Shown piece by piece: positions 4,017-46,032 of a stretch of DNA of 64,000 nucleotides. The translations under genes were made by a program, and so were the position numbers. A model generated the notes under the pieces. That model did not search any database and had not been told where the DNA came from. It was given only the letters and a program-made list of their open reading frames with translations. The stretch's first letter is position 1. Every line of letters starts with the position of its first letter. This DNA is from Sipunculus nudus (lineage: Eukaryota; Annelida; Sipuncula; Golfingiida; Sipunculidae), in NCBI GenBank assembly GCA_026874595.1, contig CM049309.1, forward strand, positions 45,972,079 to 46,036,078, read 5' to 3'.

Positions 4017-4061
4017 AAATTCAAATATCAGCTGTAAACAGAGTTGTTGAATCAGCAGCAC

Positions 4062-5500
4062 TAAATAATCTAACAGTTTTAAGGAGAGCTTTTAAGTAAC
4101 GTTTAATGCAGGTTCGTTTCAGTATCGGAGTATAAGTCGTTTATTTATAGAATATATTAAGCACGTGCAATCCGGATTGAAAATCTTTCAAAAAGCCCAT
4201 ACACCGCCTGCGGGGGAGAAGTTCTTATCTGATGAACAGTCGACTTGCTTGCTGTTATCATATGCTGAACTCTGGTTTTTCAGGCCCGCCTGATGAAGCG
4301 TATATATATATATATATATATGCTCAGTATTTACCATTAAACAGCTGAGCTATGATGGTTATTGCAGCTATTAATATCATAATACACGGAGCCGGTATAT
4401 TTATTTGGATTTCCCCCTTATATAGCCAATATATCACAAACATAAGGTCTGCTAATGCTACTTATATTAAGTTTTCTTCTCTTACGCTGTAGTGTAGAAT
4501 GTTCTCCTCCGATGTGTAGAATAATAAAAAATTATGAAATGAATGTTCGAATGCAGATGAACTTGTTCTATACAGCTCGTTTAATGAACAAGATAAAAAG
4601 TCTTCCGGCGAGATCATCCGCTCAAACGATCAGTTCTTTAAAATATGTTGTCATTCTTCGATAAACTTTTAATATGTTTTGCCACTTGACCAAAAAGCAT
4701 TACTTTAGCTTGTATTTTACCTCAAGTCTTCAGTTGTAGGTCAGTAAATACTATAAACAAATCAGTTTGTATTTTTGTAGGTTATAAATACAAACACATC
4801 TGATTTAGTCTGGTACACGTTTGTATAGTAGGATCGGCCTTACGCAGTATCAGCCAACTCCCAATAAACATCAGTGGTCCGTGTTACGCGGGTTGCTGTC
4901 ATAACAGTAATACTGCCACCTTTGATTTGTCAGAAAATATTTACATATTCTATATATACCGGTTGTTAGTTTCGATTCGTGTGCAAAAAAAATCTTCCCG
5001 CGGTAATACCGTTATAGACTAGACAGTTATATATGTCATGTATAAAGACTTACTTTAATGCATATAAGGTGTAATTAAAGTGTCCAGCAATAAAGGAAGA
5101 GAGTGCGGAACCTGCATTAATCATGCATGGCCCCATCGTACGAGATCCCAAAACGAAACTTTCTCGGGGGATTCCCCATGCACTATCATGGACTTGCACT
5201 TAGTCACCGTGAAAACAAAACGTCACCGAGGCTATAGCGAAACATTCACGAAAGCGGGTCTAGACATGTTATAGGGCTGTCATGCAAGGTTTGGATTGCC
5301 AACTTGCCACCCTTGTCAATCTGTCGACTGTTCTTGTGTATACCTGTTTCATGTCTGATGGTGTATGGTTTATAATTATATATTTGGAGGGGACAAATTA
5401 CGAATTATGTGTTTTGTTGCTGATAATTTACGAGCTCTCTGTACCTCTCGAGTCCCTTTTTATACACATGTCTAATTAAGACATGTCCTGTCATGATATT
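4062..5500. other. Intergenic, no recognised gene
   Basis: Upstream of the TNF ligand, so it should hold that gene's promoter; no core element stands out. There is a short AT run at 4303-4321. Open frames of 60-70 codons here (4455-4664, 5080-5274, 5282-5479) match nothing I recognise. Confidence 0.5.
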
Positions 5501-24528: not shown

Positions 24529-24534
<6 letters not shown>

Positions 24535-24588
<54 letters not shown>

Positions 24589-24602
24589 GAGAGAGAGAGA
24601 GA
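24535..24602. repeat. (GA)n microsatellite
   Basis: GA dinucleotide tract, about 300 bp beyond the stop codon of the PLAG-like gene. Confidence 0.95.
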
Positions 24603-24902
24603 AAGTAAGAGAGATTAGGCTTGTCATTGTTCAAAGTCTTGGATCTAAGCTGAGGGATCCTGGGAAGGGGTTACATGTAATCTTAATCAAAATGTACATA
24701 ATAACAGTCTGGAGTATTTTATGTAATTCTGAGCTGTGTGTGTACCTTTATATACCAATCAATTAAATCCTAGTATATACATGCATGTGCATCTGTGTGT
24801 ATGTGTGTGTATGAGAGACAGAGAGAAAGAGAGAGAAAACATGGAAACCATGGTGTGAGTGTGTTTGTGTATGTTTTTGAGAGAAAGACAGAGAAAACAA
24901 GT

Positions 24903-26340
24903 TTATCCCTGTCCAAAGTCTTGGCTGTATGCTGGTGGGTCTAGGGAAGGGTTCACCAGCAATGAAACGGTACTGCTAACACTGGAAGTAGGCAATTGAC
25001 CTTGACCCATGGAGAGGTTACCGAGGACACGGAGAGCATCAGTATAACTTATCCTCTCTTGCGCCATTTGTGAAGTAAGGGCATTGAGAGCAGTGTTAGC
25101 CTTTTCCACCACTGGGGATTGTGGGATTGCCCCGGTCACTTGCGCTGAATACTGGTGGTCTGCGATGGTGTGACCAGGTTGCTGCGTGACGAGTTGTGTT
25201 GCAGTGGGCTGCGTGGTGACGTACTGCGGGGCTGGACTGACCTGAGTCACTTGAGCTGCTGTACCTCCAATCACAAAATTAACACCACCAGATGGCGTCA
25301 CCAGTGTTGACGCTATTGTGTATGGCACCAGAGTCTGTGGATCATAAGCTGGCACACTTGTTAACTTTGTGAAAACTGGATTTGACTGGAGAACCTGCCC
25401 TGTATAGTCACTGCCTGGAATTTCTGTTTGCACTACAGCTTGGGTGTCTATTTTACCAGCCATGTTAGCTGGAACTATGTATGCCTGGCTCATATTTGTC
25501 TCCTGAATACCTTGAACAGGACATATCTCTATAGGTCTAACAGACCCCACACCATAAATCAAATGCTGTGCTGTTAGGTCTTTATTAGTTGCCATGGTAT
25601 TCTGTTGCTCAGTGACCACTGTTTCCAATGCCTCCTGCTCAGTTGTTGCCATGGAAACAGTGGAAGCACTGGCATCTGCTAATATTGATATTGGAATATT
25701 GTTTATAGCTGCAACATGAGGCTCTGTTTTGTCCTTGACCTTTGGCCTAGGTGGTGACACATACTCTGGTGGCATGATGCGTGAGAACTGTATCTTATCT
25801 GGTTGAGCTTCATTTGGGTGAGATCGGCGGATGTGTCGCACCAAGTGATCTTTCCGACCAAACCTCTGTGGGCAGTACTGGCAGAGATAATCTCGATCCC
25901 GTGTATGGACGATCATATGTCGCTTAACATCTTTATCCACGAAAAATTTCTTACCACAATAAGGACACATACATTTTTTATCTGATTCATCTTTCACTGT
26001 CCTGGAGCCCATATGGACCTTAAGATGTTGGACGAGGGTCTCTTTTAACTCAAAATCCTTGTTGCACACCAGGCAGGTTAAACTGCCTTCATCTATAGCG
26101 TGAAAGGCTCGATGCATCTTAAATCCATAGTTAGATGTGTATTCCCTGTTACATTTGTCACAGTAGTGTTTCATTTTCTTTGGGTCATGGATTTGTATAT
26201 GAGTTTTCAGATGGTCTCTCCGGTGAAACCCCTTTGTACAGTAAGCACACTTGTATGGTTTGTCATCCTTGTGAATCAACAGGTGGCGCTGCAGTTTGAA
26301 CTTGGTATTAAATGACTTATCACAATCTGGTTCTGTACAC
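24903..26340 (-). CDS. Terminal exon: PLAG fingers 2-7 and C-terminal tail
   Basis: Fingers at residues 473-495, 503-523, 532-552, 561-581, 597-617 and 625-646. Finger 7 (CQYCPQRFGRKDHLVRH) and finger 3 (HRRDHLKTH) keep the helix residues of human PLAG1, whose fingers 3, 6 and 7 are known to bind a bipartite G-rich site. The same DNA specificity is therefore likely. The tail (647-950) is rich in Gln, Thr, Val and Ala, as in activation domains. The 21 codons before 26340 in this frame are intron. Confidence 0.92.
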
Positions 26341-29300
26341 CTGTGAAAAAAAAAATGAAAATGATAAAAATGATGAGCTTCTTCTGCTTTCCTCAATATC
26401 ATTTAAAGTCAAAAGTTACAACTGACTTTTCATATTTTATTGTAACCTCTGTGAAATGGAATAACTAAACCCCTTGTGTGTTTTGCCAGTACTGATAATT
26501 TGGAAGGATGTGGCTATCTGGAAATAATGTTTTATTTATAAAATATGGTCATACTTTTCAGGAGCTTATGCAAACTTGAAGGGTCTGAAAGGAAAATTTT
26601 ATATCACCTTATTATATTCTCTAAAACTGAATTCAAAAGTGTATGTATACATTTTGGTCCAGTTCATATTGTGTGCTCCTGTAGTAATTTTTTTTCTAGC
26701 CCAGGAAAATTAAAGTTTGGTAAGGAACATTAGCAGAAATGTTTCAATGCTACTTAAGGCAATTGTAAAAAATTTTAAACCCTAATAAGAAACTTTTTTA
26801 GATAATCTATAACCCTCATCAGGGCTTTTCTCATGAATTTAGTCTAGTCTCCTGAGCTATATAGAATAAAGGGTCTTGCTGTGTGACATTTGGGAATCAG
26901 GGAGGGATCACAATGCAATTTACAGCAATATGCTGGGTAATGTCAAGGAAATAAGAGGCCCCCTTAAGGCATTTTAACCAACCCTGAGTTGGGCACTTTG
27001 GCTCTAACAGTGACCTTAGGGGTTGGACATCCATATACTATGGTTTGCTCTCTATATACAAGGCTGAAATTTCATGATTTTAAAAATTTTGAAGGTTTCA
27101 CGAAAGTTTCATTTTCGTGATTGCACCAAAACCTATAAATTGAAGCACAGCAGTAATTGTGTTTATTTAGAATTTAGAATAAATCCTACAATACCTCACT
27201 CATTTCTGGTACAGTCATTTAATTATGACCTGTGTTGCAGTTAATAGATCCACTGTGATTCCTGCTGCTTTTACAATAGTTCATGGTTGTATGCATGGGC
27301 CAGTGTTGATACCATTTACAGATTAGTTTGCTCATTAGGTTGTCTCCAGAGGCGTGATTGTGTATCTTATTTGGTGGTGCATCTTATTCCCACGGGTTAC
27401 ATACTTATGATTATTTCACATTTTTGAATATCGAGAAATTGAAACCCTCACAAATAAAATGGCAAGTGGAATTGTTGTAATTCATACTGACCTGTAGATT
27501 CTCTCCCCAGCATGTTCTATTTTTTTGTGAATGGACAGCTCCCTTTCCGTGGCGTATGCCTTGTCACAGGCTTCACAGGTTATAAGCTGCCCTGGTGGCC
27601 GCTGCTTTTTTTGTCTGGCAGCCATACCACGAGCCCTGACACCAGCCCTCCTTGTTTTAACTCCTTTTCCTCGAAGTTTTCGAGATTTCTTTGATTTTTG
27701 TATCCCTGCTTCACTCACACCCTCAGGAACAGACAAACCAACTTTACTCTTCATTTCTTGTACAGTTTCATTTTTGCCTTTCTCAGTCATGACCTTGACT
27801 GGACGACCTTTCCTTTTACTTTTAGTTCTTCTTCCCTCAGCTTCGGCCTCATCAATATTCATCATATACGTAACAGTCTGTGTTTCTAATGCCTCTTTTA
27901 CCGCAAACACTTGTGCAGGATCAGGTTTGATAGAGTCTTGAAGCTGAAGGTCAATTTCTTTGACTTGCTCTGTTGCTTTTTCTTCATGTACATCAAAGTT
28001 CTGAATATCAGAACTCATGACTACTTCTGTTACTTCAGCTTTTGTGCTCTCCTTAACTGTAGATGCTGCGGCTGCTGCTGGCTCTATTGCTGACTCCTCA
28101 TCTGCTGCCTCATCTTTTACCTCATAGTCATCTTCATCATAAAAATCATCAACATCGGTAGCATCAGCAGCAGTACTGTCTGGAAAAATATGGATAAAAT
28201 CTTAAATGCACACCATGGACCATCCTAATATAAGTGAAACCTGCAAATTTGTGGAATTTAAGTCCCCCACTTCTGCCTCTTGTTGTCTTTCATGCTTATC
28301 TGATCAATATGTTTCAGTTTTCATGTTTGCCTGAAGATGTCTCCAGATCTATAGTGGCTGTGTTTAGTTATCATGGTGCCCTGAAGATGTCTCCACATGT
28401 CATAATTTGTTTTTGAAATATGAACAAAATTTAATATTTTTGTTTTGGAGTTGGAAAGTAAAAATTTTAGACAGACACTCCAAAATCAATCCCAACCAAG
28501 GTATGCATAAAGCAATCACTAAAACAAATTTGTAAAAAATCAGATAATATTTAGGAAAGTTATCACATAGAAACGAAAACCTGATGGACAGACAGAGGGA
28601 CAGACAGACAGACAAACCCAATCAATGTCCCCAGTTCCGGGAAGCGGGGGACAATAATAGTGTTACAAGCTAATGTTTTTTTATGCAAGTGAATATATGT
28701 TATTAAACTGATGAGTAGCATGTGTATTGTTCAGAATTGCTTGTTAAATCATAACTGGAAGTTGCAAGAGAAAAGCAACCAATTACTGATTATTAATTGA
28801 TTATTTCAACCTGTTCTAGTTATTACTTTCTCAACACTAAAAGGGCCATTTGACAAGCTTTCAAATGTCAAAATCCCATAACCATCCACCAATACATATA
28901 TATATAAGCAGTATATCATTACTAAATCATGTGCAGACTTGTCCTGCTATGATTTAGAATACTAAGATTACACTCATCAAGAGTTGTTACTACTTTTTGT
29001 TCCACTTTCCCTATGTTTCTGAAAGTTTGAAGATTAAACCTAAATATATGTGTCTTTGCATATGTGTACATTATCATTTCTGATCCATTTCATGGAAATA
29101 CATCCAATTCAATCAATTATGAAAAAAAAAATACCAATCATTGATTTAATTGACTTATCAGTACAACACTAATATTTCTGAGAGTCTTGAGAGATTTTTC
29201 CCAAGTTCATGTATTACATCTTTGAAATGCAACCAACTTAATCAATTGTTAAGAAAAATTACCATTCATCAATTTGATCAACTAATCAGCACAACACTAC

Positions 29301-32300
29301 TGAGTAAACCTTTGATCATACTAACAATAATGTGGAGAATAAAACGCAAGTTTAATTGATCTTTTTCACATAAATGAAAATCAGACTTAAACACTTAAAC
29401 CTACTATATAATGTTATGGTTATCAAGTTAAAGAAGGGGGAGAGGCCAGATGGTGCCCGAGCTGTAATGTTTTCACAGCCAAAACCAGGCCCAGGAAAGC
29501 TCCCTCAACAACATCGAAGAGGACAGCCATGGGCTTTTTTCATTTATCATGGTCCATTTTATGGAGAAAATGTAATAAAATAACAGAGGTGACATAGTCT
29601 AGGCTAAAATTTTGTAGGTGCTACTCCAAGCCTTGTGCAAAGAATCCAAGACACATGACCCAGCACAGCTCAAGACCCCTGCTCCGGATTCAAAAGGAGA
29701 AGTTGAACAAGCCAGCAGAGCAGCAGTACCCATGCCCATTTAGTTTCAAATGACTGAACAGGCCAGACACCAGCATGCACATGTATGGAACTCTTACAAT
29801 AAACGATGTAAGAGTGATCTTAGTTATCTTTAGAATTTGAAGTTCATATAAATGAAAATTCAGGTAACTGGATTCTTTGATAAATGAGGGTTTGCAATAA
29901 AGTATGAACTGTTAAAATGACAGCATGGGCACTGAAACTCCTGTGCATTTAAAGAAGATAAATCTAGTTATGTAAAGATTTACTAAAATATGAAGCTGTC
30001 AAGAAACACTTCGGATCTAAGAAATAATCCCTTCACACAACCTCTTTGGGTCCCAGGTGCTCAACTGCATGGCCAAATAATGCATGGGTGTGGTATGTCT
30101 GTGTGTCGGACCCAAGTAATCTGGCTCATAGTCATGGCTCATACAAACCCACATGAAACGATGATATAGCCGTTGAAAATGATGACGTATTATACCAAAG
30201 CCACTTATCCTGTTGCCACACCAGGTTATGAAAATAGCATTCAGGTTGAACTGTCATGACTAATATTTTAGATACAAGGTTTACAAGAGGATATGAACTA
30301 AATAAGATGAAAAAGCATGCATGTGATGGGTACAGCTGATTTTTATGCAACTGGAGTATGCTTCTTTAAACTTTTAGTTTAATGTTTAAATTTTTTTGCT
30401 CTATGAAAGTGAATCACATAAGGAGTACATGTATATGCAGTATGTGTAACAGACAAGCTTTTTATCCCTTTTTACCAGTATATCCAGCGAAATCATGCTA
30501 ACATGACCACCAACATGGGACCAGTTGTCCTCTGATAGTACACCAAATAAGAAGTATATATATTTACAAGACAAGCTTTTTTTCTCCCTTATAAACAGTA
30601 TACAGTGAAATCTTGCTAACACAACCACCTACATGGGACAAGCCAAAGTGGTTGTGTTAGCGAGGTGGTCGTGTTATTGGAAGGTTTTTATTATGAATTA
30701 CTGTACTCCAGGACCAAACAAGGGCCTAGAGGCACAAAAAGTCCTTGTGTGGCATCAATAATGGGGTGGGACGACATGACTGACAGACAGACACAGTCCA
30801 TTTAAGAAGTCCTCCCTCCTTATGGCAGGGGACTAAAAAGTGGTCATCTTAGCTCATGGGTCATGATACACTCTGAACACAGTGCTTGACCTCCTGCAGT
30901 CCTTCCACTCACAAGCTTTGAGAAAATGAAGGGTTCTTCAAGTTTGGCAAGCTGCCAAGCACCTAGCCAGTTTGCACTGGGAAAGGTAAAATCTGATCGG
31001 CTCAGCATGTAAACAAAGTTGACTGCGGCTATGCAGAAATTGTAAAACAAAATCTGATTGGCCCAGTGTGTACACAACGATGGCTGCATCCATGCATAGC
31101 TCCTCGAACGGCATTGCAAGAAAGGAAATTTGCAAACGGTGGGGATAATTAACTGACCCTAGACCATACCAGCATGTCAGTATAGAGACTGTCCTAAAAG
31201 TATACTTTGCATGCTGTGTATACCAACAGGGAGTGGTTAAATATAAAAAAGAAGGGAATTCCACAGAGACGGCACCACCTCGTGGCTAAACCTGACGGAC
31301 AACCGAGGTTTTGTGCAGTGGTTAGTGGAGCAAATAGTTGAGCATAGTATAACTGCTGCTTATGGAGCGTGGGGTCATGACAGCAAGAATGTCGTCAGGC
31401 CAGATTTCACTGTACACCATTTATTATATGCACTGTGAGTGCTTTCAAGGTACCTTCTGTGGTGATGGTTTCCTGTATGTCTGGTTTGGCTGGTTCTGCT
31501 GGTGTGCTGTTGGTATTCTCTTGTTGTCCAGAGTCTGCTAGACTGTCTGCTCCTATTGCCAGCCTGTAGGGCTCTGCATACCATACACGCAGCTCATCAC
31601 CAACTGCCAGGGCCTGTCATATTAAATTATTATAAATATTAACTACTATGGTTGATCTCATCGTGTTAAAGTTGTAGGGAAAAACTACATAAAACTATGT
31701 AAACTTTCCAAGGTTTGGGAGAAATGGGTTTTATAATTCAACCAGAGTTTGCTTGATCCCTGAGCTTGAAACTTCAATGTAAGCAGATCATTTAATTTAA
31801 GTGGGTTTGACACAGCAATAATTTGCTATATTGGACAATACTGGAAGATACTGGAAGCTCTGTAAAGATCTCCTCTTTTTCTACATAGATATAAAACAAT
31901 TTCCAATTTCAATATATTTAAATTAAACCTGTTTATTTATGTCCATATTATCAAATTTACATTAGATTCTTGACTAATCATGTTTTACAATAAATAATCT
32001 TGCTTCTCTATTCTTCTCAAATGTAAATTTAAGAAGTTCTGCATGGTTCATTTATAACTGAATGTAAATGTAAATGGTATGAATGTATCCTTTACCTCCA
32101 GTAAGGTGTTAATTTTTTAACTCACGTTTGCTTATTTTCAAAATGCAAAAGGATTTAAAACCAAGGAATTCAAATTTCATGTAAATCCAGTACAAGAACA
32201 AATTTGTTATATTCTGTAATTAATATATATATATATTAATATATATATCTCATAACTTTAGAAACTTCTATGCAGCCATAAATTTTATTTTATTTTACCT

Positions 32301-35300
32301 TAGTAGTAATGAAGTAGACCTGTTTCCTGAACTGCAGGGCCACAGCATTGTATTCCTCGCCATTCCTTGCGGGACGAACCAAAGTCATCCAGTTACATAG
32401 GTTCTCATTGCTGCTGTCCAAGAGCTTAGTGCTGCCATCTGGCTTGATTAGCTGCATTAATATACACATAATTAAATGACAGTTAAATCTATATACATTG
32501 TATATAGTTATTCAACTTTTGTGAATCATCACACATGTTTCTCTGGCATTTCAGCATTATTTTCCATACAGGTGTACTCCACTCAAATACCCAGTCTTTT
32601 TTATGTAATATTTCTCCTTAATTCATTTAGTCAGGAAACAATTGATTATTGACGCGAATATTCTTTTATGACATGTTGTCTTGTAAAATATACCTAAAGT
32701 CTTTCATGGCATTCCCTGAAAATGATGTGATTGGGCTGTAGGATTTCAAGCTTGCACATGCTCGCCAATGTAAGATTTTCCCACAGATAATAGAAAACAA
32801 CACAGGAATTTAAGTTTAAAATCACAAAATGGCCAAAAGGTCTGTCTGAAACATATACTGCCAGTATATTAGTTAAACGTGATAAACAGGGAAACTAGAA
32901 CTATCGCAGCAGCTATTGAACTTCACCTTATGTTGAAAAATGTTAAGCCCCTTAACATGTCAAAATGACTTAACCATGTGCGACCAGACGTTGGCGGCTG
33001 GGCCCATGTCTGGATCATACAAGCACAAGAGGTGAAGTGGTGCACTGCTGTGGGCCAGCCTACTGTTATGGAGTAGGAGAGTGCATATTTGTGACTTAAC
33101 ACATATTTCAAGGAATATTTCACATTTCATATTTCACAGATACAAGCTCAGTTTCAGGCATGTCAGACTAAACAATGAATGACTTCTCATAATTGATGAC
33201 CCCAACAACCAGTCATCCGGTCACACACAAATAGGCTTCTCTCCCAATTTAATCAGAGAACAGTACACCAAACCATTAAGGTCTATTTTAAGTCTGTGTA
33301 AACAGAAATAGTGTCACAGAATGACTTATGTGTTTAGTCTTTATGAGGGAATGGTAGAACACAATTAAAACATGTTATTTTATGTGACTCCACATGTGTA
33401 TATAAGCACTGTCCTCCAAATAGGACTTGTAGGTCAGTTTATAACTGGATGTATGTCAGGTCAGACTTGGGATTTTCCATAGAACTTTTGTTCAATCAGA
33501 TCACAGGAAAGTTAGAAAGTCAACTTACAACTCTGATATAATTGTGACCTACTTTGGGTCATCAAATAAGGTTTAGCCTTTATGACGAAATGCAGAAATA
33601 TGGTATGTACATCTCATATGTCACGTGAAAGTTTTGTAACAAAACTATCTGTACGTAGTGTGCGCTGAGAGTCAGAGAGAGGGACCATGTCTAGCTGGGC
33701 ACTGCAGGGCCTCAGCAAAGACTGGCCCAGACTCTGTCCTGTGAATAAAGACTTCTATCACCAAACTGGTCTTGGAACATTGTCAGCCACGCGCATCAGC
33801 AACCATATGTGATACAGGTGGGGACATCCCCAAACCCCACATCATATCATTATGGTGGATGAACCGGAATTCACTTCCAGCACATCAACACCAGAAATGA
33901 TGACAGTGCTGCCAGCTGGAGTGAAGAATGAAGATCCCCCCCTCGCAGCCACAGGTGCCATTGACTGGTCTACCAGTCTGAATATAGATAAGAGCAGTGG
34001 TAGATAGGCCTGATATCTTACAAAGCCTTCCATTTTGTGTTGTAAGTGACCAAGTTTATAGAATCTCAACAGACATTACATGTTCATGGCTTTTATTCTA
34101 CAAGCTCAGTTTTTATGACATCACTTGCTAAAATATCACAAATTTTCATCCTTTTTTTCATATTAAATCTATTTACAGGGCTTTGAATATCTTGATAAAC
34201 TTTTCAAATTATGACCATTTTGCCATCATTCTGATGGTATGCTTTAATCTGAATGTTGCATTAGGGAACTCTTTGGAGCGTTGTTTCAGTTTAACTGTCA
34301 ATCATGATCCTGTAAAACCTCCAAAATTATGACCACCAATGGTACCTCGGTAAAGCAGTAGCATTTTTGAGGTGATAATCTAAGCAAGGTCTGCTATAAA
34401 GAGCAACAAGCAAATTCGTGGAATTTATGTACCCCTGCTTCCGCCTCTTGCTATTTAAGCTTTCTGTGATCTCAATATTTTTTAGTTTTTATTGTCCTCT
34501 GAAGATGTCTCCACATGTCATAATTGTTCTTGTGAATTGGGAACAAAAGGAAAATTTTTGTTTTGAAGCTGGTGATAATAAATTTTCAAACAGACACTCC
34601 AAAACCCATCCCATCAAAGATATGCATGAGTGCAATCACTGACCCAAATTGGAATGAAAACGGATAATATTTAGGAAAGTTATCGCACAGAAACAAAAAC
34701 CTGATGGACAGACAGACACACAGACAGACAAACTCAAATCAAAGTTCTGCAGAAGCGGCGGATAAAAAAAGAATTGAACCATGAAAAAGTGGTCATTATT
34801 TTTAGGTGGTCATTGGGCAAGGTTTTACTATAATAAAATTTTTGTTATTAAGAATTTACCACTGCAAGCTGCAAACACAAGTGAAGAGTAAATAGTAACA
34901 TATAGGATACAGTAGAGAATATAGTTTTATATACAATACCTACCCTTATAGTTAGTCCCTTCTGTTTATCCAGACTGTCACTAGTAGCTTCTGGTGCTTC
35001 ATATGGACCAAACTGTGAACTTTTCTGGACAACCTTCTTGGCAAACACACCTGTCTCTGAGAAAATGATTAAAAAATAGAAATGACCAAAAGTAACTCAG
35101 CTTAATAATAAACTATAAGACAAATTCTCATTAGAAGTTATGTGAGCTGGCAGCAATTGTTCAGTCAGCTGCAAAACCTTAAATAGGTCAAAATAAAAAT
35201 AATGTCATACTTATGTAAACTTCCTGTGTGGAACACTCTTGTTATGTCATACTAGTGTATAAAAAGGACCTTATGAGGCAAAACAAGTGACCAATGGGTC

Positions 35301-38300
35301 ATGACACTAAGCTGACTGGGAAGAGATTCGTAAAAAGGAAATTTTATCATCAGAATATACTCATTCAACTGAAGCATCAATGAGATTAACCAACAGGCCA
35401 AGATTTAGTCTGTATTTATATATCTCAAAAATAGAGAAAAAATTTATAAACTTTAAAAACTAGAATACAGGTAGCCGACAAGTGACTACGTGTATCCGCC
35501 AAAATCAGAGCGGGTGAAGTGAGGCATGGATTGAGTGGCAAGGGGAAATAGAGTGAGGTATGTTGCATATTAGCATGGATGTCTGCAGCCTAAATGTGTA
35601 TGTAGGTTGTGCCACCTACCACAAATCCAGAAAGCTGTCCAACTTGGATACATATGCGAAATTTTAGGCAGAAAAGTCAAACCACTAGATGTATATGAGT
35701 GATTTTAGTCGACAGCAGACAAACAGACAGACGCTGTGCAAAATGGTTGCAGGTGGCCCCTCCAGTTTTGTGTATGATAAAGACCTATGTGAGATCAAAA
35801 CACATGCACAATTTTGGCCCAATTGGTCAAATGGTTCCTGAGATATGAGCTTGGATGTGTGCAGCGTTAACTATAAGTTAGGTGGCGCCACCTGTCATAA
35901 AATCAAGAAAGCTATCCAGGATGTATAAACCTGCAAAATTTTAGGCAGTTATGTCAAACCACTACAGAGAAATGAGTGATTTTAGGCAACGGCAGACAAA
36001 CAGACAGACGCTTTGCAAAATGTGCAAAAATGGTTGCAGGTGGCCCCTCCAGTTTTGTGTATGATAAAGACCTATGTGAGATCTATACACATGCAAAATT
36101 TTGGCCCAATCATTCAAACCATTCCCGAGATATGAGCTTGGATGTCTGCAGCGAAAACTAGAATGTAGGTGGCGCCACCTGTCATAAAATCAAGAAAGCT
36201 ATCCAGGATGTATAAAGCTGCAAAATTTTAGGCAGATATGTCAAACCACTGCAGAGATATAAGTGACATTATCCCACGGCAGACAAACAGACAGACGCTG
36301 TGCAAAAATGGTTGCAGGTGGCCCCTCCAGTTGTGTGTATGATAAAGACCTATGTTAGATCGAAACACATGCACAATTTCGGCCCAATCGGTCAAATGGT
36401 TCCTGAGATATGAGCTTGGATGTGTGCAGCATTAACTAGAATGAAGGTGGCGCCACCTGTCATAAAATCAAGAAAGCTGTCCAGGATGTACAAACCTGCA
36501 AAATTTTAGGCAGTTATGTCAAACAACTACAGAGAAATGAGTGATTTTAGGCCACGGCAGACAAACAGACAGACGCTGTGCAAAATGTGCAAAAATGGTT
36601 GCAGGTGGCCCCTCCAGTTTTGTGTATGATAAAGACCTATATGAGATCAATACACATGTATGCAAAATTTTGGTCCAATCGTTTAAACGGTTCCCGAGAT
36701 ATGAGCTTGGATGTCTGCAGTGTAAACTAGAATGTAGGTGGCGCCAACTGTCATAAAATCAAGAAAGCTATCCAGGATGTATAAAACTGCAAAATTTTAG
36801 GCAGATATGTCAAACCACTGCCGAGATATGAGTGACATTATCCCACGACAGACAAACAGAAGGACGCTGTGCAAAAATGGTTGCAGGTGGCACCACCATT
36901 TTTTTGTGTATGTTATAAAGCTATCAAAGGGCTACATTTGTATAAATTTTATTTCCCGATCGGTCAAACGGTTCCCGAGATATGAGCTTGGATGTCATCA
37001 GCGTGAACGTGAATGTAGGTGGTGCCACCTTTCATAAAATCAAGAAAGCTATCCAGGATATATACGCATGCAGAATTTCAGGTGAATCAGTCAATTCACT
37101 GCAGAGATATTAGTGATTTTAACCCAAGGCAGATGAACAGATGGACACTGTGCAAACATGGTTACAGGTGGCGCCACCATTCTTTGTGTATGTTATTAAG
37201 CTATCCAAGGGCTACATTTGTATAAATTTTATTTCCTGATGGGTCAAACGGTTCCCGAGATATGAGGGTTTATGTGTGGAAACAGACGCACAAATGGACG
37301 CTGGGCAGTGAGGAAAGGTAAGAGGTCAACGCAAATTGGCTAGGCACCAGTTCACATGTGACCCGATAATTGGTGTAAGTTTTGGAGAAATCGGTCCATT
37401 AGTCTCAGAGGAGTTCTCTGGAAATGAACGCGGCGGTGGCGGAGGAACCCCGTCAAAAACATAGTATCCGCAAAACTTTGTTTTGGGGGATACAAAAATA
37501 CAGGTGGCTCCACCAGTCTGCAGAAACTAATAAAAACACTTAATGGTCAATATCCATGCAAAGAATCATGGTGATCTCCGCATTAGTTGTTAAGATACTT
37601 CAGCTTTTGTATCAAATTGTCCATTATTCTGAGGGATACTTCGGAGTCCTATAGCTTGAAGGATATGGGTAACAGAGACCTAATTTCAAGTTTCCACAGG
37701 CACTTTTCATGGGCCTTGCATGACAAGAATGAAGATTCTAGGTCCAGTTGTTGCGATTTGTACCCTGTTGACAGTTAACCACATCTTTAAAGGTCTTAAA
37801 AAAAGAGAAAAAAATTCGTAAAATTTGAAAAAAATAGAGGTGGTGCACCCAGTCTGCAGAAACTGATGGAACAGCTCATGATCAATATGTATGCCGAAAA
37901 TCATGACCATCAGTGTTGTAGTTGTTGAGATACTGCAGTTTTTGTATCAAATTTTCCATTATTCTGGGGGGTATTTTGGAGCCATACAGCTTAAAGAATA
38001 TGGGTAACAGAGACCTAATTTCAGGTTTCCATGGAGACTTTTCATGGGTCTCCCTGTGTGTCAAGAAAGGTCCAGTTTTTATGATTTGTGCCCTGTTAAC
38101 AGATGATCTTATCTTAAAAGGTCTCAAAAATAGAGAAAAAATTCGTAAAAAAACCCGAACAAATACAGGTGGTACCACCAGTCTGCAGAAACTGACGAAA
38201 CACTCCATGATCAATATCCATGCAAACAATTATGGTGATCTCTGCATTAGTTGTTCAGATACTTCAGCTTTTGTATAAAATTTTCCATTATTCTGGGGGA

Positions 38301-41300
38301 TACTTCGGAGCCCCATAGCTTGAAGAATATGGGTAACAGAGACCTAATTCCAGGTTTCCATGGAGACTTTTCAAGGACCTCTCTGGATGTAAAGTTAGAA
38401 GTTTCCAGGTCCAGCAGTTACGATTCGTGCCCTGTTAACAGATGATCACATCTTTTATGGTCTCAAAATAGAGAAAAAAAATCGTAAAAAAAAATCGAAA
38501 AAATACAGGTGGCGCCACCAGTCTGCAGGAACTGATGGAACACCTCTTGATCAATATGTATGCCAAAAATCATGACCACCAGTGTTGTAGGTCTCTGTTA
38601 CCCATATCCTTTCAGTCAGCTGAGCTAAAAAAGTATGGCTTTCAGGCACTTTTTTAACAAGGGACCCATTGGAAATGACTTATAGTCAGCTGAGCTAAAA
38701 ATTGAGGTTTTTCCTTAAGTTCTCGAAGGAACAAAGTTGCAAAGACCCAGTTTTCAGCTTGGTAGGAGATCTTTGGGACATCTAACGTTATGCCAACAGC
38801 CTGGGGAGCATAGATATGCACTGAATGACCTACAGTCACCAAAGTGGACTGCTTGACAATGTAAGGGAATACAACAAGAGCCTCCTAAAAATTCAATAAC
38901 TAGCCTAATTTTGCAGCTTTTATTTTCAAATTTCAGATTTTAACAGATTAAATCCTTATGTGTACATGCTGTGAAAATTAAATCCACAGTACTTACAGGA
39001 AAAAAAGTTGCTGTGGCCAAACTTGGGCAAAATTTAAGGTACCAATTTTATATTTTTGCCAATATTTAAAAAAAAAATTTTAACAGATTTTGATCTAATT
39101 TTTGGTATACAATTAAATTTTGATTAATTAAAGTTGTATTACTGATAAAAAGTCCCTACCTTTAACACTTTTGGTCTTAAGTGACCAAATATCTTTCCTG
39201 ATTTTTTACAAAGTCCATTATGTTTGGGCCAATAACTATTTAAATTAAATAATACTGACTTAATTTCTGACATGTACATAGGAACTATATAGAGGAATAT
39301 TTATGGTAAATATGAAGAAAACCAGATGAGTGGTTTTGATATTAGGCAGTCCTGAAGTGTAAAAATAGATTTCTAATAAAAAATTGTTTTTCCTTAATAT
39401 CTCGAAGGAACGAAGTCCTATTGACCCAATTTTCAGCATGGTAGGAGATTTTGGGGACATCTAACTGTATGCCGATTTCAGATTCGTAGGTCCAATGGTG
39501 TCGAAAGGTGCCAGTCTTCCGGACGGACATCCAGACAGACGGACGGACAGACAGACGGACGGACGGACAGTTGACGGACAATGGACCACGACTATAGCTC
39601 AGATGACTTATAGTCAGCTGAGCTAAAAATCAGTGCGGGTGGGCGATATTTATTTTTTACCTTTTTTTAATGTTTCAATAAAATTGTCATATGATCAGGG
39701 AAAAGCATGAAATAACAGAATTTTTTTTGCGAAACATGTAAAAGCACTGCATAATAAAGGAAATCTTATCAAAATTATATTATATTATCTTCTTGAAAGA
39801 TGAAAATCAAATAAAAATGTTTGATGCGGGGGGTTAAAATTGATGCGTGCGGTGCCTAAGAACCGTATACCTTTTTTTTTTTGCCTATGAGGCCCCAGAG
39901 CACAATGAACCAACACAATGAAAGACAGACTAAAGCATCAAGAACCACTGACTAGCTTGTGTCTCTCGTAATGCAAGTAATGCTACCTACCATGCTGGCC
40001 CTCTGTGCGGTACGCCAGTACTCGAGCCGATAACATGTGAGGTACTGTTAGTCTTGCTCTGCTGGGGATTTTACGATCTCTAATCCGAGTGAACTTCCCA
40101 TGTCTTTTGCACTGCCTCCTCACTGAATTCTTACACTGGTCACACCCTACAATGTAACAGAGGTCAGAGGTCATCTAGACTGGTATTCTGCTCATTTCAA
40201 GTCATGTGTTCTGCTCTGTCACAGAGACTTGAATCAATTCCACACCTAGATTTACAAAAAGCAATGATTCTGGCTGATTCCTAATTCATTTTTTGCCTTT
40301 TTTAGCTCTGCAAATAACACATGGACACTGACATATACCAGAAATTTTTGAGTGATGGAAATGTTTAGTGTCTAGTTCAAAGGTAAATATTACTAAAGCT
40401 GTTTTTTTTCATAGTAGGAGCATGCTAGCACCTGCAGCTAATGAAATTCAAAATATTTTATAATTAATAATTAATAATTTCATGCAGATATCTATAACAT
40501 ATAGGCCCACTCATGAGGAAATGCACTGATAAAGTATTTCATGTGAACCACTTACCAGTGAGTAAAAGAATTTACAATATCACTATGAATCCCCATTTTC
40601 CCTTATAAGTATTATGATTTATACCCCTTTCCCATCATAACCATGCATTGTGTAATTGTGGCAGTAAAAGGCACTGGGATTAGGTTTAAGATCGTCTGCA
40701 GGAACAAAAATCATGATTACTGGAACTCACACATAAAGTTGTCATCATAGCTGACTGGTGCTGGCTGGCTGTTCTGCAAAAGTGCTGCCCCCTTGAGGAG
40801 GTTCTCAATCTGTAGTGTGCTGACTATCTGTGGGTTAGTCAGAGGCACCTCTGTAAGGGACTCTATAAAACAAGCAAAATATTTCTTAAGCACTAGGACT
40901 GATCTAGCTTTCAAGACTTGGAACCTTTTTTGCTTCAAGGCGATATTATTACTGCATTGTTTAAAAGGTGAAGGGGGAGGAAGGGCAATAATAATCCATG
41001 AAACTATTATTGAAACAAAAGTTTTTCTGCAGACTTCTGTCAATCAAAAACTTTAGGCTATATTGCCTGCACAATTTCATTACAGTAAAACAAAGTTGAA
41101 CCTTGAATTACACAATATATGCATTAAACCTTTCATGTCTATTCCTTTGAGATAATGAGGTTTTATGCTATTTTACTACATACATATTGTGTTCTCTCCA
41201 AAATACTGCAAACTATGAACAAATTTGTCACTAATCTTTCACCATTGCCAGAAAAAAACCCAATAAAATTTCTGTGACAGTGTTTTGCTTTTCCTGCCTA

Positions 41301-42347
41301 GGAACTTAGAAATCTGACATGGTCCATCTTAAGAGAGGGCAGGAGTCAGACATTAGCATCCCCACTGTGTAAATAAGGCAGTACATGCAGTAATATCCAG
41401 ATATAAACCATGTACTCTTTTAATTACAACACTGTTTTATGAACACAATATGAAGGGGAATATCTTCTTAAATGTTCAAAGGACAACTGCATTAGGTGTT
41501 ATTCACTTAGCTGTTAGACTGTTAGTCATTATTATAACTCACTAACTCATAAATTTATGTTTTTAATTAATATAAGCTTACCTGTAGTAATAATTAAAGC
41601 CATCTATTAACCTGCATGAACTATAGAATTGATGTAATTTTTTGGTTTACATTGCACAGATTAATGAAATGTTCTTGTGGAATATGTTTGGCTTATTTTG
41701 CTGAGCCCCCCACCTTATATAGTTATAAACAGAAACATGGATATAAACAAATTAAACAGCCTGTGTACCATGGGATAGGCGTTTATTAGCCTATTTTTAT
41801 GAAAGGTTCAAGTAACTCTTTTTTGTTAATGGACATCTGATATTAGAATAAGCGCCTTTAAGGATGGGTAGATTGATTAAATTTATTTTAGTTTTACATT
41901 AAGACATAATCCAATTTAATTAGACATCCTTATTTAGACAGAGTTGCCTAATGAGGCAAATCTAAATCAAAGAAAAATAGGAAACCTTTAATTACAGAGT
42001 TGCTAATTTTAATAATTTGCAAATACCTCATACTATTCTTTTATCAACCGCTCATGTGTTAATAAATTAAACGCTGTTAACAATATGCAAATATTTTAAC
42101 TTTTTCCGCTTCATGTAAGAAAAAAAGGAAATCGTTATTTACAGTTTGGACTGTCACCTGGTAGGACCACGTGCTTTTGCTGTCGTTTGTTTACAACAAG
42201 CCACATTCGTCAGCCAATCAGCACTGTTGGGGTTCACTCGGGATTTCTGATACACACTCGCTCCAAATACGGTCCTGTGCTGACATAATCATGCACGGTG
42301 GGTGTATGATCCCACAATCAAATCTTACCATGGGTTATATTTTCCAT
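24903..42347 (-). CDS. PR/SET-domain protein with PLAG1-type seven zinc fingers
   Basis: Predicted nuclear transcription factor of about 950 residues. Exons: 42347-42329, 40862-40731, 40146-39991, 35050-34944, 32451-32299, 31613-31454, 28179-27492, 26340-24903. All have AG/GT borders and matching phases (1,1,1,0,0,1,2), totalling 2853 nt. In order: zinc knuckle WC-x2-C-x7-C-x2-H (51-66); PR/SET domain (about 78-205, with FGP, CNWM, VRPAR, ELRVWY); acidic linker (about 250-275); basic region with KRKGRP (364-369); seven C2H2 fingers (444-646); Gln/Thr-rich tail. The fingers match human PLAG1 in order, spacing and sequence. An in-frame ATG at 42356 would add three residues, with a stop just upstream. 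The PR region resembles the PRDM4/9 type; methyltransferase activity cannot be judged. Introns carry large repeat insertions. Confidence 0.85.
27492..28179 (-). CDS. Exon with acidic and basic linkers and PLAG finger 1
   Basis: Acceptor TTTTCCAG, donor CTACAG|GTCAGT. It carries the acidic stretch DDFYDEDDYEVKDE, two Lys/Arg-rich blocks and finger 1 (C444, C447, H460, H465). The intron splits the linker between fingers 1 and 2 in phase 2 and restores GERIYR-C. The exon begins 54 codons upstream of the Met at 28018. Confidence 0.9.
28236..28655 (+). repeat. Interspersed repeat C, copy 1
   Basis: Starts GCAAATTTGTGGAATTTAAG, ends GAAGCGGGGGACAA. The TCCCCCACTT and AAGCGGGGGA near the two ends are inverted relatives. 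Copies also lie at 34405 and 48640. A duplicated CCTGAAGATGTCTCCA block is special to this copy. It lies in an intron of the PLAG-like gene. Confidence 0.75.
28656..31453. other. Intron of the PLAG-like gene, no other gene recognised
   Basis: Contains an inverted pair TTGCTAACACAACCACC / GTGGTTGTGTTAGCGAGG near 30614-30670. The plus frame at 29374-29583 includes a Pro/Gln-rich stretch with no recognised family. Confidence 0.5.
31454..31613 (-). CDS. PR-domain C-terminal exon
   Basis: Encodes ALAVGDELRVWYAEPY, the closing strand and conserved WY of PR/SET domains, then a Ser/Thr/Pro-rich linker. It enters in phase 0 and leaves in phase 1, fitting both neighbours. Confidence 0.85.
32299..32451 (-). 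CDS. PR-domain core exon
   Basis: 51 codons with no phase change. Contains NLCNWMTLVRPARNGEEYN, the hallmark of PRDM proteins (xNWMxxVxxA), then FRKQVYFITTK. Confidence 0.88.
34405..34765 (+). repeat. Interspersed repeat C, copy 2
   Basis: Shares CTGAAGATGTCTCCACATGT, ATAATATTTAGGAAAGTTAT and the GACAGACAGAC tract with copy 1; the end is degraded to AGAAGCGGCGGATA. Confidence 0.75.
34944..35050 (-). CDS. PR-domain N-terminal exon
   Basis: Encodes GVFAKKVVQKSSQFGPYEAP. The VFA...FGP pattern is the opening of PR domains. Acceptor GAGACAG, donor AGG|GTAGGT. Confidence 0.85.
35283..38627 (+). mobile_element. Helitron-like array element, copy 1, with nested array
   Basis: The 5' end is AACAAGTGACCAATGGGTCA, shared with 50361 (AACAAGTAACCCATGGGTCA). 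The 3' end is CAGTCAGCTGAGCT, shared with 51231. Inside are four monomers of 320-345 bp starting near 37501, 37841, 38166 and 38516, each beginning with a variant of CAGGTGGCGCCACCAGTCTG. A second array element is inserted at 35467-37495. The whole lies in the intron between the zinc-knuckle and PR exons. Confidence 0.65.
35467..37495 (+). repeat. Tandem array element B1, about 285-bp period
   Basis: GGTGGCGCCACC or a close variant recurs at 35881, 36168, 36446, 36737 and 37018 (spacing 287, 278, 291, 281 bp); a half-unit related sequence lies midway in each. The ends carry GTGTATCCGCC and GGGGGATACAAA, possible inverted termini. The flanks match sequence that is continuous at 50530-50560, which shows that B1 was inserted. 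Confidence 0.75.
38653..39627 (+). mobile_element. Helitron-like array element, copy 2
   Basis: Starts AACAAGGGACCCATTGG and ends AGCTCAGATGACTTATAGTC followed by AGCTGAGCTAAAAA. The 3' AGCTCAG...CTGAGCT can form a hairpin. It splits a Harbinger-like MITE whose arms are at 38628-38652 and 39628-39885. A GACGGACAGACGGACG-type tract precedes the hairpin. Confidence 0.6.
39628..39885. mobile_element. Harbinger-like MITE, split copy (right part)
   Basis: Carries ATCAGTGCGGGTGGGCG, GATCAGGGAAAAGCATGAAA and GGTGCCTAAGAACCGTATACC, as in the intact copies. Its left terminus (GTATGGCTTTCAGGCACTTT) is stranded at 38628-38652. Confidence 0.65.
39991..40146 (-). CDS. Pre-PR zinc-knuckle exon
   Basis: Encodes CDQCKNSVRRQCKRHG and then SRARLTVPHML, matching the knuckle and SRARxxxP lead-in that precede the PR domain in PRDM4 and PRDM9. 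The next intron, 4.9 kb, is almost filled by repeat elements. Confidence 0.85.
40731..40862 (-). CDS. Second coding exon, N-terminal region
   Basis: Encodes SLTEVPLTNPQIVSTLQIEN through YDDNFM. No domain is recognised. Phases fit both neighbours: the junction to exon 3 creates the Trp before the knuckle. Confidence 0.7.
42329..42347 (-). CDS. First coding exon (19 nt)
   Basis: ATGGAAAATATAACCCATG then GTAAGA, a strong donor. The ATG has A at -3 and G at +4. The 1-nt overhang is what the next exon needs. Two other ATGs upstream on this strand open short frames that end quickly. Confidence 0.6.
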
Positions 42348-42599
42348 GTTGATCATCTCTATTGCTTATTTCTCGCCACATGAACCCGAAAGCCATGAGT
42401 TGTCACACCGGTACCAATCGAGGTCAACTCCCCTTGTCCGAAGCCATTACTGCTGGGAATGCTGGGAAAAGGAATTCCCGGGGTCATCATAGGGTCAAAC
42501 GTCTTCCCTCAACAAGCCTGAGAGCTGAGTTGTCAAACGTGTGGCATGTACTGTGGTGTGATTTGTTAGGTTATAAATATTACTGTCACAGGTGTCAAA
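42348..42599. promoter_or_regulatory. Bidirectional promoter between the PLAG-like gene and CHCHD7
   Basis: Only 252 bp separate the two divergent start codons. The interval is less AT-rich than its surroundings. It holds TTCCCAGCATTCCCAGCAGT (reverse strand, about 42448-42468), which resembles the ZNF143 binding site found in many bidirectional promoters, plus GGAATTCCCGGGG. Just inside the PLAG-side intron are CACGTG (42167) and GCCAATCAG (42214). Transcription start sites are not visible. Confidence 0.7.
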
Positions 42600-45500
42600 A
42601 TGTCAGGGACAGAAGAACCAGTAATGACAAAACAAGAAAGAGAGAATCTTAGGCAAGAAAGAATAAGAAGGGCAACAAAAATGACAGATGAACTAAAAAA
42701 CCCATGCATCAAGGTCAGATATCTCTGCTGGTATAAACATGTTATATCACCTCCACTTCAACATGTATTTGGGTAATAAATATGATAGTAGTATTGATAC
42801 AGAATTTTAAGTTTCTACCCGAATGATATTGACAAATGATTTTATAGTCTGTTTTGAATGAAGAGAAAGTCCTAAACGGTCTGTCAGGCTATGAGGCTAC
42901 TATTAATGCATGTACTATAGTCTATATATACCTTTCCGCCTGGGATACATTCAAACTCAAACGGTTAAATTTGAGTCAAAATTGGATTTTGAAAATTTAT
43001 GATTTTTATGCATTTTTGTTAACACTGTATTTAGTAAAACAGTTGTACTATATATGAAATATAAGATGAATATACTGAACAATTGCAAATGGTTTGATGA
43101 AAGTTTTTCATATCAGATTCCCAGAGACGGAGTTATCATAGCTGTCACAGTATTTTGTTCAACTTCCAAGTGGCAGTATTTAATATATAGGAAACCTGCA
43201 GTTCATCATCATTATATGTTACTAATTTTCATCATTTTGGTGAATATATTCATTGACAGTTTGATTGGTACAATAAACATTATGGTACATATGGATTGGG
43301 ACTGAGCAGTGACATATATAGCTCATTGGTAGTTTTTATCCCCTATTTGTTTCATTTTAAGTAAACATGATAAAGTAATTAAGCATTACAATATTGTGCT
43401 GGTATTTAGCGTGGTAATAGTTGATACAGATATAGGAAAATTAGGGTATTTTTTTATAAATTAATAATATGGATGAATAATATTAAAAAATGTATACAAT
43501 TCCTCTAAATGCAAGTCAACATATACCTTTCCAGTATGATACATGTATCTTGATTGCATTACACTAAGTACATGTAATTTACTACCAGGTTCAGGTATCA
43601 GGTACTCATGAAATCCAGGTACGTGTACAGGTACTCTGAATTAGGTACATAGATACAGGTGTGAGTACCTGACCTCAACTGTGTTTATTGCCGTCCATAA
43701 AATCAAAACTGACTTTTTAAACAAATTCTCAACTATTACAGGATCTATAGTCATGTATTTGCAAATAATAAATAGATTTATCACATGCAAATTACACCTG
43801 GCTACAGTTGAAATGAAGAATATTGATAGACACCAAGGTGTTGAAAGGGTGCCATGAGATGAATGAAAATAATTATGTAGAGATAATCAAAGAAATACTG
43901 TCATCAAATATTGCTAACATGTGGATGGTAAATCTGACGCACATTGTCTTACAGGAACAGAAGATGTCTATGAGATGCATTCATGAACACTTTGACAACA
44001 AAGAAGTGTGTGGCCCATATTTCCAGAATTATAACAACTGTAAAAATTTCTGGGTAAGAACACTGAATTATATCACCATTAACATAACCTATTCTCTCAT
44101 TAGGACAACTTCTCATTAATTACAACTGAGCTGCATTTAAAATTTGTTTCAGTCATCCAATAATTAATAAATAATTATGAAATATTACAGAATTGTGTAC
44201 AATATTATTTATCTCTCTAATATTGTCTCTCTTTCCATATTCCTTGCTTTCACATGAGGAATATTTAAGATCTTATTTTTTGGAGAAACATTTTATACCT
44301 TTGAAATGAAACATTTGTATTTGTATTTAAGTGCGCTGAGTGAAAAAGGACTTTTTTTCATATTTAAAGTACAAGTAGTTGATAAGCGACTGTGTATCCG
44401 CTGTATCACAGAGGCATAGGTAAAGTAATTCATGGAATGTTCCTGACATGACTATAAATTTGTGACACCAGTGATGCCATTTAAAACTCCTCATTTATGT
44501 GCAATTTTCACCAAAAGCAGATCTACAGATAGATAAACCGTGCAAGATTTCAGGCTCAGACACCAGTCAACTACTGAGAAAAAGTGCATCAATGTATTCT
44601 TTAAAACAACAGCAGGTGGCACAACCTCTCTGGTCTACAACAAAGCTATCCAAGACAGACAAACATGCCAACATGTCAGGCTAGTACATGCATCCACTCC
44701 TCAGATATGAGCAGTTTTTACCCAAAGCAAATAGATGGATGGATACAAGTCCTGAATACAAGATGGCGATATCCAAGCTCTATTGACATGTACAATTTAA
44801 GGCCAATACGGCATATCACTCCTGAGAAAAGGGCATTAATTTATTATATAAAAACAGGAAGGTAGGTGGCGCAACCTGTCTGGTCTACGAGAAAACTCTC
44901 CAAGATTATGTACATGCCAAATTTTAGACCAATACATTGAATCACTATAGAGATATGAAACTATTTATCTAAAGCAAATGTAAGGATGGACTCCACACAG
45001 AAATGATTGTAGATGGCACCACCAGTGTTAAATACGAGATGGAAGTATCCAAGATCTATGAATAAGTACAATTTCAGGCAAATATGGCAAATCACTCCTG
45101 AGAAAAAGGTGATTAATTTATACTATGAAACAGGAAGGTAGGTTGAGCCACCTGTGTGGCTGATAAAAAAACTCTTCTAGATGGATGTACATGCCAAATT
45201 TCAGACAAATACATTGAACCACTCCTGAAATATGAGCAATTTTCACCTAAAGCAAACATACAAATAGATGCCACACAAAAACAATTACAGGTGGCGCCAA
45301 CAGTCTTAGATACAAGATGGAGGATTCCAGGATCTACGGACCCGCACAATTTCAGGCCAATACATTTTAACCAATCACTAAGAAGAACAGATGGCAAACG
45401 CATTGATTGATGGCATGCAAAAATTATTGCAGGTGGCGCCACCAGGTTTGCAGTTACTAGTTGGAGAGATCCAAGATCTATGGACATGTAAAATTTCAGC

Positions 45501-46032
45501 TCAATACACTGAACCACTCCTGAGATATGGGCTGTTATTAAAAAGACACCCAGATTCATACTGCACAATAAGGACTGCATATGGTGCCCCCGTCTTTGTT
45601 AGGCACAACTACGCAGGTGAAAGCATAACTATGCCCAGTTTCAGAAATATCAGTCCAAGGGTCTCAGAAGATTTCACCAGACATGAACACAATGGTGGCG
45701 GCATAGAAAGCTGCAGAACCCGTTCAAACCCATTCAAAAATAAATTTTTGGCAGATACAATTAACAAAAAATCATGGTAGGAATATACATTACATTAACA
45801 TCCAAATGTTTCCTTATTATAATATCAGTTGAAGTAAAATATTCATTTTAATATATTTCCATTTGCTAGTTACATTTTTGTTGGCTTTTAAACTATGTTT
45901 TCTTTAATCCAGGACAGAGTGAAGATTGATCGCAAGAGAAAGGGACTCAGTGATCCTCTCCCACCTCCAGAGGAGAGAGAGAAAGTAAAAGCAGAATATA
46001 TGAAAAAAATGAGAGACCCGCTGTCGCTATAA
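42600..46032 (+). CDS. CHCHD7: CHCHD7-like twin CX9C protein
   Basis: Complete 110-residue protein from three exons: 42600-42713, 43955-44053 and 45913-46032, all in phase 0 with AG/GT borders. The twin CX9C motif is intact: C36-x9-C46 and C57-x9-C67, which in this family form two disulphides holding a helical hairpin. Proteins of this class are imported into the mitochondrial intermembrane space by the MIA40 pathway. Sequence (NPC.....MRC, FQNYNNCKNFW, RKRKG, P.PPEERE) and layout match vertebrate CHCHD7 from memory. The N-terminal 35 residues are charged and rich in Arg and Glu, with no signal peptide. Intron 2 contains an array element. AATAAA occurs at 46122 and 46660. Confidence 0.9.
44371..45770 (+). 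repeat. Tandem array element B2 in CHCHD7 intron 2
   Basis: Starts ACTGTGTATCCGC, as B1 does. Monomers begin near 44605, 44866 and 45136 (CAGGTGGCACAACC and variants), with half-units at 45291 and 45432, the latter a perfect GGTGGCGCCACC. It ends GGCAGATACAATTAAC. It is more diverged than B1. Confidence 0.65.

Follow-up and report, generated by a model that had tools for sequence, protein, structure and literature searches.

A gene on the minus strand of the Sipunculus nudus genome, here called PR-PLAG, probably joins a PRDM-type zinc knuckle and PR domain to the seven zinc fingers of the PLAG family within one protein. The best explanation of the evidence as a whole, to which we assign a probability of roughly 85%, is a single gene that is both a PLAG orthologue and a PRDM protein, with an ancestral PR-PLAG gene being favoured. 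The original prediction that the PR domain and the PLAG fingers belong to one gene is well supported, and two observations are added to it: the identity of the divergent neighbour, CHCHD7, and the point at which coding begins in the finger-1 exon. The window, by which we mean the whole 64-kb stretch of DNA that was analysed, covers positions 45972079-46036078 of contig C4 (CM049309.1) in a genome of 1.43 Gb and 153 contigs. Since contig C17 measures 61 Mb and C18 52.5 kb, the assembly seemingly contains 17 chromosome-scale pieces.

Gene model and the PR-to-finger junction

PR-PLAG was modelled as eight exons (42347-24903, minus strand) in a single frame. The placement of the exons on one strand and in frame, as predicted, is borne out by seven introns that are all GT-AG and by the lack of an internal stop; the predicted length of 2853 nt is replaced by a coding sequence of 2859 nt including the stop codon (952 aa). 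The encoded protein reads, in order, PRDM zinc knuckle, PR domain, a linker that is acidic and then basic, seven PLAG-type fingers, and a tail. Exon 1 (42329..42347, start codon ATG at 42347) is the weakest, being placed by its position and donor only; a second in-frame ATG lies three codons upstream at 42356, and an in-frame stop seven codons upstream. Exon 2 (40731..40862) encodes the N-terminal region in an open frame with a codon score of -0.12, compared with an intron mean of -0.53. The next four exons are based on the gene model together with PDB matches: exon 3 (39991..40146) carries the zinc knuckle CX2CX7CX2H (WCDQC...), exon 4 (34944..35056) the first half of the PR domain with its FGPY motif, exon 5 (32299..32451) the PR core (NWMTLVRPARN), and exon 6 (31454..31613) the end of the PR domain (VWYAEPY) and the start of the linker. 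Exon 7 (27492..28179), placed by the gene model and the codon score, encodes finger 1 and, ahead of it, the linker, acidic at first and then basic, and exon 8 (24903..26340), placed by the gene model and finger comparisons, encodes fingers 2-7, the C-terminal tail, and the stop codon. Intron 3 contains two tandem arrays, at 35567-37192 (period 287, 5.8 copies) and 37494-38574 (period 329, 3.2 copies). Beyond the stop codon, at a distance of about 290 bp, an AG dinucleotide repeat occupies 24534-24614, probably within the 3' UTR.

Could the PR exons and the finger exons belong to two genes instead? Under such an arrangement, a short zinc-knuckle/PR protein, similar in plan to vertebrate PRDM11, which is not known to have a finger array, would lie beside CHCHD7, and a distinct PLAG gene with a start of its own would come after it. 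It is consistent with exon 6, whose frame stays open for 15 more codons until it meets a stop near 31407 (an AATAAA immediately precedes this stop), and with the ordinary splice signals at the PR-finger junction. Splice sites were scored with a generic matrix, by which the donor of exon 6 ranked among the best 5.9% of all GT dinucleotides and the acceptor of exon 7 among the best 4% of all AG dinucleotides; the same intron contains five further AGs with higher scores than this acceptor. The strength of the junction is therefore middling and does not decide the matter. By the same matrix, the acceptors of exon 5 (top 26%) and exon 6 (top 20%) are weak.

The coding signal, on the other hand, argues against two genes. 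For a codon score, we used 17 long open frames from this genome, a set rich in zinc fingers, as the training data. By this score, the top coding segment of the whole window (28183-27500) coincides with the modelled exon 7 to within a few bases, and its signal starts no more than 4 nt from the acceptor, ahead of any methionine. A stretch of 148 nt of exon 7, wholly before the first methionine, scores +0.38, whereas all 939 frame-windows in the 3.27-kb intron between the PR and finger exons (31453-28180) score below it, the highest reaching -0.01 and none rising above zero. Because exon 7 is coding before any methionine, translation very likely reaches the finger frame through a coding exon further upstream, a role that PR exon 6, being in phase, can fill. 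Furthermore, an extra gene would separate CHCHD7 from PLAG and break up their head-to-head pair. Taken together, we consider a two-gene arrangement improbable.

The codon score does miss some coding sequence, for exon 2 and the C-terminal tail (-0.02) do not rise above the best intron window; a short first coding exon could therefore hide in the 31453-28180 intron, where it would give rise to a PLAG-only transcript. CpG counts across 28.0-31.4 kb range from 0 to 11 per 400 bp, compared with 13 at the presumed promoter, and their maximum, at 31001-31400, comes so near to 13 that CpG decides nothing about a separate finger promoter. For the single-gene model, we infer a splice from 31454 to 28179 that joins the PR domain to the fingers. 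The common frame and phase, together with coding from the acceptor onwards, point to C2H2 fingers C-terminal to the PR domain within the same predicted protein.

Identity of the PR domain and the fingers

The PR region matched 15 distinct PDB sequences at E<=0.01 (best 2.1e-18), and all 15 are PRDM proteins if MECOM is counted, as we do here, as PRDM3. The Pfam family PRDM2_PR matched the same region at 2e-27. When the knuckle and the PR domain were compared together, the PDB scores were similar for PRDM11 (70.1 bits), PRDM9 (69.7) and PRDM10 (68), the match to the PRDM10 chain starting after the knuckle cysteines. With the PR core alone, PRDM10 came first (51 bits), followed by PRDM9 (43.1) and PRDM4 (41.5), and the VRPA motif is common to PR-PLAG and PRDM10. 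The zinc knuckle ahead of the PR domain, a feature of some PRDM proteins, aligned with those of PRDM9 and PRDM11 with equal spacing; the Pfam family Zn_ribbon_PRDM4 matched it at 0.035, below the cut-off. We take the finger array of PRDM9 to differ from that of PR-PLAG.

Given this nearest PR core, is PR-PLAG simply the PRDM10 or PRDM4 of this animal, with fingers that diverged in the ordinary way? We think this very improbable. PRDM10 is present as another gene of this genome, with a finger array of its own, at C17:6452000-6463976 (loci L054 and L067), and a PR core at C6:9066447 is nearest to PRDM4 (58.1 bits, with 53.8 for PRDM10). PR-PLAG is therefore a further PRDM gene. The fingers of PRDM10 also differ from those of PR-PLAG, in which fingers of the PRDM10 type were not found. 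A similar last finger had suggested that the PLAG fingers could derive from PRDM10 fingers, but this idea was not supported: among 181 finger pairs, drawn largely from loci themselves selected for matching well, the highest-ranking PRDM10 pair comes 12th for the window and 27th for PLAG1. Elsewhere in the genome, 17 of the 48 PR-domain matches lie within 0.33 Mb of contig C16 (48182323-48516423; loci L026, L030, L031, L034-L037, L039-L044 and L046), a local expansion of PR exons.

The fingers, for their part, have the order and spacing of the PLAG family. Aligned with a working version of the human PLAG1 sequence, the seven C2H2 fingers are identical at 100 of 206 positions with two one-residue gaps. 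Identity is 7/21 in finger 1, which is poorly kept, 12/23 in finger 2, 13/21 in finger 3, 9/21 in finger 4, 10/21 in finger 5, 11/21 in finger 6, and 17/22 in finger 7, so that finger 2 is kept as well as finger 6. Searching the genome with this version of PLAG1, we obtained 194.6 bits at the PR-PLAG locus and 125.4 at the next (150 of 2013 candidates scored); similarly, the fingers of the window scored 455.5 bits against themselves and 106.5 against the next array (150 of 1854 candidates scored). Of the candidates scored, PR-PLAG alone is thus a clear PLAG-type array, and, with 150 scored in each search, a second PLAG gene in the genome is unlikely.

PLAG1 is described as having seven C2H2 fingers (PMC7762056), of which fingers 3, 6 and 7 are named as DNA-binding (PMC12317869). 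At the contact positions (-1, 2, 3, 6), finger 7 reads RDHR in both the window and the working PLAG1 sequence, and fingers 3 (RDHT vs. RDHN) and 6 (VKDR vs. TKDR) keep three of four residues each. Because these contacts are kept, the most likely target of PR-PLAG would be a G-rich site resembling the one recognised by mammalian PLAG1, which is given as GRGGC-N6-8-GGG (PMC6262857). Compared with PLAG1, PLAGL1/ZAC1 and PLAGL2, the gene likewise has seven fingers in identical order, with similar linkers and with nearly all contacts of fingers 3, 6 and 7 kept, but it adds a zinc knuckle, a PR domain, and a long acidic/basic linker before the fingers. Vertebrate PLAG proteins are not known to have a PR domain. 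Since the PR exons share a frame with the fingers, PR-PLAG is a PLAG orthologue without being a typical PLAG member. Its last exon encodes fingers 2-7, whereas human PLAG1 exon 5 on its own preserves fingers 3-7 (PMC12317869).

The CHCHD7 neighbour and the history of the gene

The divergent neighbour of PR-PLAG, on the plus strand, is CHCHD7. Its three exons (42600..42713, 43955..44053 and 45913..46032), placed by a PDB match and the gene model, encode 110 residues, for which 2LQT (4.3e-13) was the sole PDB match at E<=0.1; the Pfam family CHCH scored 21.1 bits, below its cut-off of 27.2. The start codons of the two genes are separated by 252 bp (42348..42599), a presumed bidirectional promoter that probably serves both. 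In humans, CHCHD7 and PLAG1 lie head-to-head about 500 bp apart (PMC9405559), and in cattle a common bidirectional promoter is described for the two (PMC5359603). The head-to-head CHCHD7 is therefore a trait that PR-PLAG has in common with mammalian PLAG1, and within the PLAG family it belongs to PLAG1 only. With CHCHD7 as the divergent neighbour, as in mammals, the PR exons are flanked by the conserved promoter position on one side and by the fingers on the other. The pairing would be a neighbourhood kept since vertebrates split from the Sipunculus nudus lineage, and it makes the history of PR-PLAG readable beside CHCHD7 in any animal genome.

Did vertebrates lose the PR exons, or did the Sipunculus nudus lineage gain them? 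The original prediction named both possibilities. We built a tree of 21 PR cores over 76 columns, with 12 rows from the genome (the window and 11 hand-picked loci, out of 48 PR matches) and 9 of the 15 PDB sequences. In this tree, human PRDM10 and the genome's own PRDM10 form a pair (98/93) with the window outside it, and the window stands beside this pair (90/80, below the program's threshold for counting as shown), on a long branch of 1.21. The window and PRDM10 together fall inside a group with PRDM4 (95/98). By the AU test, grouping the window with PRDM9 gave p 0.0365, whereas grouping it with its own PRDM10 (0.127), human PRDM10 (0.133) or PRDM4 (0.374) was not rejected.

In the best tree, the split of the PR domain of the window predates the split between the Sipunculus nudus lineage and vertebrates, and an ancestral fusion is therefore favoured, on short data. 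The tree thus leans towards the loss named in the prediction, with a join to the animal's own PRDM10 left unrejected. The favoured, though unproven, account starts from an ancestral PRDM-PLAG gene and has its PR exons disappear in the line leading to vertebrate PLAG1. We give slightly better than even odds to a broader history, in which the PLAG family is a subfamily of PRDM: a bilaterian PRDM-PLAG gene would have stood beside CHCHD7, and vertebrates would have lost the PR exons while keeping the fingers, the neighbour, and the promoter position.

The converse history, in which a PLAG gene captured PR exons in the Sipunculus nudus lineage and vertebrate PLAG1 has the ancestral form, is equally compatible with one gene, and we regard it as possible but rather unlikely. 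It agrees with the unrejected grouping of the window with its own PRDM10, with evidence that comes from one species, and with a PR core exon whose start is similarly placed in PR-PLAG and in the animal's own PRDM10. The intron that ends this exon, on the other hand, differs, following TTK in PR-PLAG and ELK in PRDM10, and the best tree sets the window outside the PRDM10 pair on its long branch.

No relatives elsewhere were confirmed in the viral and genome contig collections searched. Similarly, neither a PR-PLAG protein nor an account of the origin of PLAG1 was found in the open-access literature among the matches listed, the former having been sought in titles and abstract openings; genome databases may carry PR-PLAG gene models under other names. 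The original prediction also raised the idea that PR-PLAG might correspond to an invertebrate-only Prdm group already listed under another name. By the count of a survey in the bivalve Mulinia lateralis, there are 11 PRDM proteins with 0-20 fingers and none with seven (PMC10451705), and the main text of a survey of C2H2 families in Daphnia does not include PLAG (PMC2889900).

Predicted function and other features of the window

Transcription would most likely start in the short gap common to CHCHD7 and PR-PLAG, the transcript covering first the exons for the zinc knuckle and PR domain and then those for the PLAG fingers. In the resulting protein, the fingers would bind G-rich, PLAG1-like sites, and the PR domain would most likely recruit chromatin factors to these sites by binding partner proteins. 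Methyltransferase residues occur in some PRDM proteins only, and residues N320-C321 of PRDM9 matter for cofactor binding. In PDB alignments, PR-PLAG has R-P at these two positions, as does PRDM10. The active-site tyrosines of PRDM9 are Y276, Y341 and Y357 (PMC5519329), and the corresponding residues of PR-PLAG in PDB alignments, numbered by matching tyrosines, are Y, F and Y. Judged from these residues, a methyltransferase activity of its own is doubtful for the PR domain, which most likely recruits rather than catalyses.

PLAG1 is a mammalian growth-control gene and a salivary-gland oncogene, and PR-PLAG suggests that it may descend from a PRDM gene. If PLAG1 is indeed a PRDM gene that has lost the PR domain, the PRDM proteins become the frame in which to interpret its biology. 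Domain loss would then separate the ancestral factor from the present activators, which would have been left without a chromatin module.

In the rest of the 64-kb window, no Rfam families or tRNAs were found, and none of 10 ORFs, selected for their length, matched a Pfam family at E<=0.01. An open frame of 180 codons at 3552-4091 on the minus strand, also without a Pfam match, contains a hydrophobic stretch that resembles a membrane anchor.
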